57,457 nucleotides of DNA from Actinomycetota bacterium (GTDB lineage: Bacteria > Actinomycetota > Geothermincolia > Geothermincolales > RBG-13-55-18): contig JAQVFR010000020.1 of NCBI GenBank assembly GCA_028697145.1, positions 1-57,457 of the forward strand. Direction: 5' to 3'. Position 1 is the first letter of the stretch; the number at the start of each line of letters is the position of its first letter. The translations under genes were made by a program, and so were the position numbers. Shown here in pieces: positions 5,037-29,918 of this stretch. The notes beneath the pieces were generated by a model that was not told where the DNA came from, did not search any database, and was given only the letters and a program-made list of their open reading frames with translations.

Positions 5037-6566
5037 TCAGCTTCCCGAGAGGCGGTCGTCGATGAAGCCGGCGCAGCGCATGGCCAGAGCCATGATTGTG
5101 AGCTGGGGGTTGACCCCCGGTGAGGAGGGGATCACGCTGCCGTCGCAGACATACAGGCCCTCCACGTCCCAGCTCTCGCAGGTGTGCCGGACCACCGACC
5201 ACTCCGGGTCGCTCCCCATGCGGCAGGTGCCGAGGGGATGGTAGGCGCTCATGGCCAGGATGTCGGTGGCGCGCACGCGGGAGCGCTCCAGGCGCCGGAG
5301 GTCCCGCGGGCCGGAGAGCTCATAATGTCCCGCGATGGGGGTGAAGACCCTCTTCGCCCCTGCCGCGAACCATACTTCCGCCATGAGGGCGGTGGCCATC
5401 CTGGCTTTATCGACGTCCTTTCCCCGCAGCATGTAGAGAATGCCGGGGCGGTACCCCGGGCGGCGCAGGTCCACCACGCGGCCCCAGGAATCGCTCTCCG
5501 AGACCATCCCCCCGAAGATTCCCATGTTGGGGTAGGAGGCCATGAGAGACGCGTTGCGCTTCCCGGCGAAGGGCAGGGCCAGGGAGTGGACCTCGGGCGG
5601 GACGGTCCCCCCTTCCAGCATGATACCCTCACCTTTGAACTCGTCCACGTAGCAGCTCTGTGGGATTCCCTTGGGCGGGCCCAGGGGCTCACCCATAAGG
5701 GCTATGGTCGAGGTGGCGGGGTGGATCTGCAGGTTCTTTCCCACCTGCCCGCTGGAGTTGGCCAGGCCCTGCTTGAGCAGGAAGTAGGGGGAGAAGACAG
5801 CCCCCGCGGCGAGCACCGTGACCCTGGCCTCCACCTCGATGCGTTGCCCGGTGGGTTTGCCGGTCATCGGGTCTATGAAGAAACCGGTGACGCCGGTGGC
5901 CCTTCCGCCCGCCGTTTTTACGCCGTCCGCGCGGCAGCGGGTGTAGATATCCGCCCCCGATCTTACGGCGTCGGGTATGAAGGAGACGTCCACGCTCTGC
6001 TTGGAGCCGGAAGGGCAGCCGAAGACGCAGGACCCGAAGCCCTCGCATTCCTTGGCGTTGCGCGGCAGCCACCCGCTGGAGAGGCCCAGCTTCTCCGCCC
6101 CCGCCAGGAAGGTGCCCGCCACCTTGCCCGCCACCTCGGGATCGGCCCTCTTCACGAAGAGGAACTCCTCCAGGTGCCCGTAGATGAGGTTGAGCTCCTC
6201 CTCGGTGATGTCGGTGAGGCCGTGGGTGAGGTGCCACTTCTTGAGCACCGGGCGCAGCACCCGCAGCGCCGTGCCCGAGTTTACCGTGGTGGTGCCGCCT
6301 ACGGTCTTGCCCATGGGGAGCAGGACGAAGGGCACCCCCAGGGTGATAGTCTGGCCCGCGTCGCGGTACATCCTCATGTAGGATTCGGCCGGGTTGAGGT
6401 TGAAGTCCTCGCGGGTGAAGTAGCCGCCCTCCTCGAGCACCACCACGGAATAGCCCTCGCCCGCCAGCTCCCTGGCGATGGGGCCGCCGCCCGCGCCGGA
6501 GCCGATGATGGCCACGTCGGCCGAGCGCCTGACGTCGCCCTTGACGTCATGAGGACCGAGTATCAT
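5037..6566 (-). CDS. GMC-family FAD oxidoreductase
   Basis: A 509-residue flavoprotein of the glucose-methanol-choline family. The N-terminus has the FAD-binding Rossmann motif IIGSGAGGGPIARELAGEG with the acidic strand VVLEEGG, and TVGGTTTVNSGTALR is the GMC substrate-domain signature. The C-terminal domain has YHPLGTCRMG (catalytic His) and SSPGVNPQLTIMALAMR (Asn of the His/Asn pair). A Cys-rich insert, CEGFGSCVFGCPSGSKQS, occurs at about residues 185-205. These enzymes oxidise alcohol groups; the electron acceptor is probably not oxygen here. The ATG overlaps the stop of the preceding gene (ATGA, 6563-6566), so the two are translationally coupled. A longer in-frame upstream extension is rejected because it overlaps that neighbour. 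Confidence 0.88.
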   Translation of the reverse strand: MILGPHDVKGDVRRSADVAIIGSGAGGGPIARELAGEGYSVVVLEEGGYFTREDFNLNPAESYMRMYRDAGQTITLGVPFVLLPMGKTVGGTTTVNSGTALRVLRPVLKKWHLTHGLTDITEEELNLIYGHLEEFLFVKRADPEVAGKVAGTFLAGAEKLGLSSGWLPRNAKECEGFGSCVFGCPSGSKQSVDVSFIPDAVRSGADIYTRCRADGVKTAGGRATGVTGFFIDPMTGKPTGQRIEVEARVTVLAAGAVFSPYFLLKQGLANSSGQVGKNLQIHPATSTIALMGEPLGPPKGIPQSCYVDEFKGEGIMLEGGTVPPEVHSLALPFAGKRNASLMASYPNMGIFGGMVSESDSWGRVVDLRRPGYRPGILYMLRGKDVDKARMATALMAEVWFAAGAKRVFTPIAGHYELSGPRDLRRLERSRVRATDILAMSAYHPLGTCRMGSDPEWSVVRHTCESWDVEGLYVCDGSVIPSSPGVNPQLTIMALAMRCAGFIDDRLSGS

Positions 6567-7006
6567 GGCTGTCCCCCCTGCTTCGGTGGGAGGTCGCGGT
6601 CTCGGGTCACTACGCGCAGGGTGGATTCCTCCTTGAGGGCGGCGGCGTCGAAGCCAAGGGGAACCGCGACCTCGGGGCGGCGGTAATAGGACATGAGCAG
6701 CGGCAGGCCGAGCAGGACGCCCACGCCGCGCAGGAGGGGATTGCGCGAGGACATGACGCGATTGAGCAGCTCCTGCTGCTCCTCCACTCCGAGGCGCGAG
6801 AAGGGCCGGCCCTTGAGCAACAGCGACAAGGCTCGCAGGGACCAGTTGCATACGAGGAAGATCACCTTCAGCTCCGGGGCTCCCGCCGCGAAGTACTCCT
6901 CGATGAAGGCGATCTGCCCTTCGGGGTCGAGCGGGGGCACTCCCTCGGGCTCGCCGATGTAGGCGTCCATCAGCTCACGCATCTCGCGGTCGGAAATACC
7001 CTTCAT
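6563..7006 (-). CDS. Small partner of GMC oxidoreductase (gluconate 2-dehydrogenase subunit 3-like)
   Basis: A 147-residue protein with start ATG behind GGAGG. No export signal is evident. It contains helices with a central hydrophobic patch (LLRGVGVLLGLPLLMSYYRR) and ends in a polar tail. Its size, helical content and four-base overlap with the downstream GMC flavoprotein resemble the small subunits that travel with membrane-linked GMC dehydrogenases. The assignment rests on context and general pattern more than on motifs, so a lineage-specific accessory protein is equally possible. Confidence 0.55.
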   Translation of the reverse strand: MKGISDREMRELMDAYIGEPEGVPPLDPEGQIAFIEEYFAAGAPELKVIFLVCNWSLRALSLLLKGRPFSRLGVEEQQELLNRVMSSRNPLLRGVGVLLGLPLLMSYYRRPEVAVPLGFDAAALKEESTLRVVTRDRDLPPKQGGQP

Positions 7007-27705: not shown

Positions 27706-28419
27706 ATGACTACTGCAAGATGGGAAGAAGTAGCGGAGGACTACAACCGCATCTTCCGCCGGGACGCCTACTACTACGACATCCTGGACATGATCGCCGA
27801 GCGCGTTGAAGCCGGCGGGGGCGCGCGCGTCCTCGACCTGGGCTGCGGGACCGGCAATATCATCGCGCTCTTGCGGGAGAGATTCCCGCGGGCGGCGCTG
27901 TACGGCGTGGATCCCGCCGGGAAGATGGTGGAGCTGGCGGCCGATCGCTTCCGCGAGGAACCCCTGGTGCAGATATGGGAGGGTGAGGGAACGGGAATAC
28001 CGTTCGGCGACGCCTATTTCGACTACGTGGTCTCCAACCTGGCCCTGCATCACGTGCTGCCGGACCGGCGCCATGCCTGCGCCGCCGAGATCTTCAGGGT
28101 GCTGAAACCAGGTGGACGCCTGGTATACTCGGACCTCTTCTGGGACGTGCCCGGCGAGAAGGAGGACCCCGCGCGCTGCCGCGACATCATCGAAAAGATC
28201 ACCGCTTACGCCCTCTATAACCTGGAGATTGGGGCCCGCGAGATGATGCTCTTCCTCTTCGAGCAGCTCCCCCTGCACCTGGACGAGAGAGACGAATACG
28301 TGACCGTGGTCGAGGACTGGCTGGACCCCCTCTCCGCGGCCGGTCTCGTCGGGCTCGAGGTGGTGTTGCCGCCGCACCCCGAGTTCGCCTTCAGGCTGAT
28401 ATGCGGAGCGAAGGCTTGA
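27706..28419 (+). CDS. Class I SAM-dependent methyltransferase
   Basis: A 237-residue enzyme with motif I RVLDLGCGTGNIIALLRERF, the acidic strand LYGVDPAGKMVELAADRF, motif II region IPFGDAYFDYVVSNLALHHV and motif III VLKPGGRLVYSDLF. It belongs to the Methyltransf_11/25 group; the substrate is unknown. The ATG follows AAAGGAGG by five bases. Hydrophobic FLFEQLPLHLDERDEY and the C-terminal IC-GAKA end are intact. It sits alone between a methyltransferase remnant on the minus strand and the selenoprotein gene downstream. Confidence 0.85.
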   Translation: MTTARWEEVAEDYNRIFRRDAYYYDILDMIAERVEAGGGARVLDLGCGTGNIIALLRERFPRAALYGVDPAGKMVELAADRFREEPLVQIWEGEGTGIPFGDAYFDYVVSNLALHHVLPDRRHACAAEIFRVLKPGGRLVYSDLFWDVPGEKEDPARCRDIIEKITAYALYNLEIGAREMMLFLFEQLPLHLDERDEYVTVVEDWLDPLSAAGLVGLEVVLPPHPEFAFRLICGAKA

Positions 28420-28486: not shown

Positions 28487-28648
28487 GGTTCCCAGGTAAC
28501 AGTCATGGCCGCGCAATACCCGGCAACAGCGTGCACAAGCCCCATGTGCCATCAGGTGCCGGGGAATGCGGGAAGACAAGACCTGCTCCCGGTCGGGTTA
28601 TAATATGCCTGTCGCGTCGGGCGGCCACACGTTTGGACGGAGGTGGAC

Positions 28649-29626
28649 ATGGACGGCATGGTGAACCGGATCATCGCGGCGTACGCGCGCGCGCGCATCT
28701 TCAAATACCTCAACTGAATGCAGGCCACTTTCAGTACCCTGGTAGGGTACCTGGGGGCAACGGACAGGACGGCGGTCGTCGCTTCCTGCCCGCTGGAGGG
28801 AGGAGGCGCCAGCGAGGGGTCCACCTGCGGCGTGGTGTCCGGGGGGTGCTTCGCCATAGTGCTGGCGCACCTGGCGGACGTCCTCTCACCCGACCTCGCC
28901 AAAGGCGATGCCTTATACGGGCGGCTGAAGGAATACACGCAGTGGTTCGAGCGGGAATTCGGCTCCACGCTGTGCCGCGAGCGCTGCGGCGTGGACGTGA
29001 AGGAACTGGCGGGCTTCATGAACTACCTCTTCACGGGCAAGGTCGTCACCCGCTGCGTCGATCACATCGGCGCCGCCGTGTCGCGCCTCATCGAGCTTGT
29101 CAACCGTCCCCTCGAGGGCGGCGGCGAGGTCACCGACCTGGACCGGCGCCTGGCCGCGAGTGGCGGGTACTGCGCGGCGGATGTACTGCGCGGCGTTCGT
29201 TCCGATACCGGCTACGGCAGCCTCTACCTGGAGCGGCTGTCCCTCGCCCTGGACGGCGGCGTTGGCCTGTCCGGGGGGCTGTGCGGAGCGCTGGCCGGGG
29301 CCCTGCTGCCCATGGGCCTCATCTGGGGCATCGATCCCAGGAAAGAGGGCGTAACGGGGACCGTCGTCCCCTTCCTCAGGGGACACGCGAACCTTTATCT
29401 CGACCGCCGCGAGCCCGAGCTGTGGTCGGTGGCCAATCCCTTCATGCGGGAGTTCAAGGCAAGGTACGGCTCGCTGGAATGCCGGGACATCGTGGGCCGC
29501 CGGTTCGCCGGCGGGGCGGAACTGGCGGAGTTCGTGGAGGCCTCCTCCACGTGCTCCGAGATAAAAGACTGGTGCCGCGAGCGCGCGTCCGGCCTCATCG
29601 CGGACAACACCGTCTTCGCGAGGTGA
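28649..29626 (+). CDS. C_GCAxxG_C_C family redox protein with selenocysteine, TGA at 28715-28717
   Basis: From ATG 28649, five bases after GGAGG, the frame gives 325 residues if TGA 28715-28717 is selenocysteine 23. The sequence reads IFKYLN-U-MQATFSTLVGYLG, where family members have N-C-x-Q-A, followed by EGSTCGVVSGGCFAIVLAHL. A second family domain follows (about residues 160-240: GGYCAADVLRGV and GGLCGALAGALLPMGLIWG) with the ordinary Cys, so the protein is a tandem fusion with Sec only in the first domain. A perfect 7-bp hairpin with loop GGT follows at SECIS distance. An ATG immediately after the TGA gives a false start for standard callers. The role is probably redox-active but undefined; three downstream genes share the strand. 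Confidence 0.85.
28732..28753 (+). promoter_or_regulatory. SECIS-like hairpin of the C_GCAxxG selenoprotein
   Basis: GTACCCT (28734-28740) pairs perfectly with AGGGTAC (28744-28750) around the three-base loop GGT, and two more outer pairs form past a bulged C. The loop starts 24 nt after the TGA and its first base is G. Spacing, small loop and G position match bacterial SECIS elements. Confidence 0.8.
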
Positions 29627-29636
29627 GGATGGGAGG

Positions 29637-29918
29637 ATGGAGAAGCCGCATCCCGAGGATGCCGACCTGATGAAACTGGTGGACCGCTACAAGGCGATGC
29701 TGGAAGACATCGCCGGCTACAAGCTGCGCGCGGCGGCCCTGGGAGGGACCCCCACGGCCGGGAAGAGGATGAACGAGGAGCTGTCGAGGAAATCCAGGGA
29801 GGCGGAGGAGTTGGAGAGGGAGATAGAGGAACTGCGGGCGAAGATCCTGGCCAGGGAAGGCGATATACGCCGGCTAGGGAAGCCGGGACGGCCTGAGACC
29901 GGAGGGAGAAGAGCATGA
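29637..29918 (+). CDS. Small coiled-coil protein
   Basis: A 93-residue charged protein with a heptad-like segment (NEELSRKSREAEELEREIEE) predicted to form a coiled coil, preceded by a helix (LVDRYKAMLEDIAGYKLRAA). No family recognised. It starts ten bases after the selenoprotein gene and ends with ATGA overlap into the nitronate monooxygenase-like gene, so it is a genuine operon member by position. It could be an adaptor or oligomerisation partner. Confidence 0.6.
   Translation: MEKPHPEDADLMKLVDRYKAMLEDIAGYKLRAAALGGTPTAGKRMNEELSRKSREAEELEREIEELRAKILAREGDIRRLGKPGRPETGGRRA

Follow-up and report, generated by a model that had tools for sequence, protein, structure and literature searches.

The window analysed here, a stretch of 57,457 nucleotides (contig JAQVFR010000020.1, assembly GCA_028697145.1), comes from an uncultured actinomycetote near Candidatus Solincola. 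It carries a gene whose frame runs from the ATG at 28649 to the stop TGA at 29624-29626, open throughout apart from an in-frame TGA at codon 23 (Table 1). The product matches the PF09719 (C_GCAxxG_C_C) profile in two stretches (103.7 bits against a curated Pfam cut-off of 27; E 8.9e-30), and each of the two domains has the four cysteine sites of the family, if selenocysteine (Sec) is accepted in place of Cys. In domain 1, Sec would replace the first of the four family cysteines, whereas all four are Cys in domain 2, where the counterpart of U23 is Cys175 (TGC, 29171-29173). An earlier note, made from the letters of the window, had already described an upstream part with its own start and GGAGG and a second copy of the domain with an ordinary Cys. 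Both observations were borne out, and the profile alignment to PF09719 that it suggested as a check recovered both halves of the protein.

Table 1. Features of the locus and of the Sec machinery and candidate selenoprotein genes elsewhere in the same genome (G000)
Feature	Position	Strand	Remarks
SAM methyltransferase gene, upstream	27706..28419	+	closest NCBIfam model DVU_1556, below cut-off; kept beside the gene in several relatives
GGAGG ribosome-binding site	28639..28643	+	5-nt spacing to ATG 28649
Predicted tandem C_GCAxxG_C_C selenoprotein gene	28649..29626	+	325 residues, Sec at codon 23
First C_GCAxxG_C_C domain	28688..29116	+	U23, C60, C109, C136
TGA, putatively read as selenocysteine (U23)	28715..28717	+	from homologue comparison; context ...FKYLN-U-MQATF...
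SECIS-type hairpin GTACCCT-GGT-AGGGTAC	28734..28750	+	7 perfect bp; loop GGU from nt 24 after UGA
Second C_GCAxxG_C_C domain	29147..29602	+	C175, C212, C278, C302; equivalent site never Sec
Small open frame	29637..29918	+	no family match; kept in nearest relatives only
selD	contig 3, 32280-33203		carries one in-frame TGA itself
selA	contig 3, 34047-35417
selB	contig 3, 35465-37348
tRNA-Sec	contig 3, 37492-37583		79 bits
TGA-bearing molybdopterin oxidoreductases	G000:C26:87116-88390, C16:8747-10018, C3:46190-47758

A scan of named genomes returned 48 tandem homologues, which together with the window gene gave a set of 49. These occur in Actinomycetota (including Candidatus Solincola, Candidatus Geothermincola and others), Thermodesulfobacteriota (Desulfobacterota), Myxococcota, Spirochaetota, Chloroflexota and a few more phyla, as assigned by the tree tool. 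The codon at the site was TGA in 30 loci, TGT or TGC (Cys) in 18 and GCA (Ala) in one, and each of the 30 Sec-form genes had exactly one TGA. A TGA at this codon is therefore more than chance, since 30 of the 49 homologous loci have it at the exact position and the rest have Cys or, once, Ala. The 18 Cys codons in the alignment support the proposal that the TGA in LN-x-MQATF stands at a conserved Cys of the family. The claim that Sec is confined to the first domain also held, because the equivalent site of domain 2 was Cys in 49/49 tandem homologues. Moreover, a separate search among relatives of the window, which overlaps the first scan in several genome records, recovered tandem genes that were 45-73% identical. 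Twelve of these loci, counting the window, had TGA at the site, and the remainder had Cys or Ala; within the window's own class, 12 of the 20 tandem genes have the TGA. Reading the TGA as Trp was rejected, because homologues have Cys there and the window gene itself terminates in TGA. That the stop arose by sequencing error, assembly error or gene decay might be suspected of a single in-frame stop in a draft assembly. However, the same TGA recurs in thirty loci, and the remainder of the gene is intact and selected, which leaves this explanation with a negligible probability.

Three further loci deserve mention. In L081 (Candidatus Solincola sediminis, match 6001-6900) the Sec/Cys site is Ala and the first motif is altered, with domain 2 intact; this form has naturally lost the first site. 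In a genome of the same genus, within the same assembly as L069, there is a second tandem paralogue with Sec, L073 (match 1480-2424). Finally, a single-domain PF09719 match with one in-frame TGA (G040:C43:15291-15677), from the same genome as L086, is possibly a single-domain selenoprotein.

If the TGA were a true stop, translation would start at the ATG at 28718, directly after it, and the product would lack the first motif residue. That ATG opens a frame of 302 codons and would be the choice of a gene caller. No ribosome site, however, precedes it, and the residue at the position of Met24 is Asn, Ser, Ala, Gly or Thr in the other Sec homologues, so this ATG is not a conserved start. The upstream codons point the same way. 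For codons 1-22 the pN/pS ratio was 0.48, close to that of the domains (0.41-0.43), while the 66 nt before the ATG at 28649 gave 0.97. At the protein level these codons are conserved in the family as MDE.VNR followed by YLN-U/C-xQAT, and the substitution pattern indicates that they are under purifying selection. In addition, the Cys orthologues read straight across the site, and we consider a true stop very improbable. The earlier note had set its proposal against the case in which the 22 N-terminal codons show no conservation in relatives and homologues start at the ATG after the TGA. What we found is the reverse: Sec and Cys homologues both extend upstream of the site, the 22 codons are conserved and Met24 is not common to the Sec homologues, so the Sec reading stands. 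Note that a standard gene caller would clip the protein at the Met after the TGA and lose the selenocysteine, and homologues are therefore likely misannotated.

A related explanation is that the UGA acts as a selenium-dependent switch, with the full selenoprotein made when selenium is available and termination, or restart at Met24, when it is not; regulation would then be the point of the codon. Sec insertion generally competes with termination, and Met24 does offer a restart in the window gene. Since Met24 is absent from the other Sec homologues, any such restart would be peculiar to the window species; moreover, Cys forms occur without any switch. This explanation seems improbable to us.

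The hairpin described downstream of the TGA in the earlier note is indeed a perfect one of 7 bp with a GGT loop; the distance of 24 nt given for it holds for the start of the loop, and the stem begins at nt 17. When the window gene was recoded synonymously 200 times, an equal or better hairpin arose in only 0.5% of cases. The 61-nt segment at the UGA did not by itself have an unusual folding energy (z -0.22), and support for the hairpin hence comes from comparison. For this we used a fixed criterion (at least 6 contiguous pairs, a loop of 3-5 with G as its first or second base, and the loop about 15-30 nt from the UGA), under which a hairpin of 6-8 bp with an early G in the loop was found in 29/30 Sec loci versus 2/18 Cys loci. 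This result, with that of the recodings, upheld the proposal of a SECIS-like element; L073 was the sole Sec locus in which no hairpin was found under the criteria used. The loop is centred near nt 25 in Actinomycetota and near nt 20 in the Desulfobacterota/Myxococcota group. Despite this shift, pairing is kept inside each Sec lineage, and it is broken in Cys relatives. Synonymous change is also lowered over codons 24-45 (pS 0.34 versus 0.50 for the domain). Among seven independent Sec/Cys pairs on supported branches the hairpin tracks Sec in four to six and opposes it in none (median p 0.0625, borderline); the unadjusted comparison of hairpin energy between Sec and Cys loci gave p ~2e-4, with relatedness ignored. 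One Cys-form locus, L071, has a hairpin of 8 bp and loop GGC that spans nt 16-34 counted from the Cys codon, in the same place as the SECIS of its Sec relatives, likely a relic of Sec use.

The genome also has the means to read the codon: selD, selA, selB and tRNA-Sec form one block on contig 3 (32280-37583). Three of the four molybdopterin oxidoreductases found in the genome have one in-frame TGA each and are probably further selenoproteins. From these three and the TGA in selD, the host organism appears to use Sec in several proteins. Across the window's class, tRNA-Sec and SelB scored above cut-off in 11/11 genomes with the TGA form; six Cys-form genomes of the class also have Sec machinery. 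Outside the class, SelA was found in 16/20 Sec-form and 9/12 Cys-form genomes, all of them draft MAGs of unstated completeness, and little can be read from this difference. Machinery as a discriminator of the Sec from the Cys form was rejected, as both sets of genomes mostly have it. On another contig of the host genome an elongation-factor-like match to the SelB model (G000:C32:53752-54945), below cut-off, has two in-frame TGA in the matched stretch and may be decayed or misassembled; a stop-free elongation-factor-like match lies on the same contig (71811-72971).

The position of the site, its conservation, the hairpin and the machinery are supported by comparison, and from these we infer that Sec would actually be inserted. 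Very likely, then, the product of 28649-29626 is a genuine selenoprotein, with SelB and Sec-tRNA-Sec reading the UGA at 28715-28717 with the help of the hairpin.

With regard to the origin of the tandem, a quick single-domain tree placed the 49 first domains in one group and the 49 second domains in another, both apart from single-domain relatives. Because first and second domains group separately, the simplest reading of the tree is that one tandem gene would be older than its spread among phyla. The whole-protein tree requires at least eight Sec/Cys changes, six of them forced by supported branches, and all fall in domain 1. The most interesting evolutionary point is that the tendency to use Sec is not common to both halves. 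Speculatively, this could reflect an early division of labour, in which domain 1 exchanges Sec and Cys freely and domain 2 is held to Cys; selenol and thiol versions of one active site would then act in sequence in one chain, perhaps in anaerobic ketone or acyl-CoA metabolism. The fixed contrast, with Sec or Cys in domain 1 and always Cys in domain 2 across several phyla, is a built-in control for what Sec adds to the fold and a pointer to the reactive one among the eight conserved sites. Moreover, the gene offers a series of natural exchanges between Sec and Cys, in most of which the hairpin disappears together with Sec.

An alignment-based structure model was all-helical and confident (pLDDT 92.8, pTM 0.93); a single-sequence model (pLDDT 40) was discarded. 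The PDB structure search with the confident model found no solved relative (best E 1.7), and PDB sequence searches, run with the full-length protein or with the profile of the tandem, gave best E values of 0.13-0.29, the top matches being unrelated proteins. We propose one, presumably cytosolic, all-helical protein of two PF09719 domains. Most likely, the reactive site would be the domain-1 selenol, working together with the cysteine of CGxxxG and the remaining conserved cysteines of domain 1, and the all-Cys domain 2 would be its partner, either to transfer electrons or to hold a cofactor or a subunit. The protein would be a cytosolic thiol/selenol or Fe-S redox protein; a redox function is suggested by the family name, PF09719 itself being 'putative redox-active', and by the Cys/Sec exchange.

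The neighbouring genes give a lead as to the pathway. In the window's relatives the methyltransferase lies upstream, with thiolase-type genes further up and a nitronate-monooxygenase-like or a DUF362-ferredoxin gene downstream; a methyltransferase is also upstream in three Chloroflexota loci. In L086 the gene has a thiolase gene on one side and, on the other, a row of genes of the epimerase, SDR, TPP-enzyme and Zn-alcohol dehydrogenase types. Gene neighbourhood was rejected as a key to function, since neighbours are conserved only in the window's relatives and scattered in most of the Desulfobacterota/Myxococcota loci examined. Among the prominent acetone-induced proteins of Desulfococcus biacutus is a PF09719 protein, DebiaDRAFT_04510, whose gene lies near those of a thiolase and a Zn-alcohol dehydrogenase (PMC4103992). 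Given this protein and the thiolase and acyl-CoA/ketone genes nearby, the best lead, which is not a finding, is a possible link to acyl-CoA or ketone metabolism.

A less likely possibility is that Sec is inserted and U23 coordinates or tunes a metal centre, iron-sulfur or other, in an electron-transfer protein and does not act as a redox thiol. A PF09719 protein of D. ferrophilus has been catalogued as putatively binding Fe-S (PMC8322314), and DUF362-ferredoxin genes adjoin some homologues. In addition, the single-domain family profile matched the CGxxxG segment of split-Soret cytochrome c (1h21; E 5.8e-4), which counts as a hint only. That match, however, spans only about 36 positions, and the structure search gave no solved relative. 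Moreover, reactive sites are where Sec and Cys typically exchange often, whereas Sec is rare as an iron-sulfur ligand.

How does the protein compare with known systems? The earlier note had suggested that a Sec/Cys pair in one tandem redox protein may be new. Sec in the family is not, because selenoproteins of the C-GCAxxG-C-C family have been catalogued before, in two forms; the asymmetry of the tandem was not found described. TIGR01909, named 'C-GCAxxG-C-C family (seleno)protein' by NCBI, resembles the window protein, as does PF09719, in that both halves match, four cysteines are conserved and Sec is known in the family. However, TIGR01909 is a single-domain model of 120 positions, whereas the window protein has a fixed tandem form whose Sec is confined to domain 1, and it scored just below the cut-off (46.6 versus 47.4 bits). 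The best NCBIfam match to domain 1 was the DVU_1555 family (NF045669), also a single-domain model, with a score far below the cut-off (51.7 versus 103 bits). The upstream gene was likewise closest to the DVU_1556 methyltransferase model (NF045667), again far below (77 versus 155 bits). The HUGP/GUXX-star fusion selenoprotein (NF045501) gave part matches in all 19 members scanned, but the window protein scored 41.6 against a cut-off of 325 bits, far below, and the model describes not a tandem but a fusion to a different domain, for which two Sec are listed. Split-Soret cytochrome c (PDB 1h21) has the CGxxxG segment in common by profile; unlike our protein, it is a haem protein, it aligns over a short stretch and it was not returned by the structure search.

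Also close are the PF09719 selenoproteins tabulated as C-GCAxxG-C-C forms 1 and 2, with one Sec each, as in the window tandem (PMC13188914; one form in PMC9312934). Form 1 has the accession MGD8741185.1 and form 2 WP_012158890.1; these tables give neither the architecture nor the position of Sec. A literature search, which did not extend to the primary papers on these earlier forms, and the NCBI models yielded no text or model for a tandem with Sec in domain 1 only. Judging by reference order, form 1 seems to stem from a 2007 survey of a deltaproteobacterial symbiont of a gutless worm. Sec tandems were common in the broader group of that symbiont in our analysis, and form 1 may be the same protein type as the window tandem.
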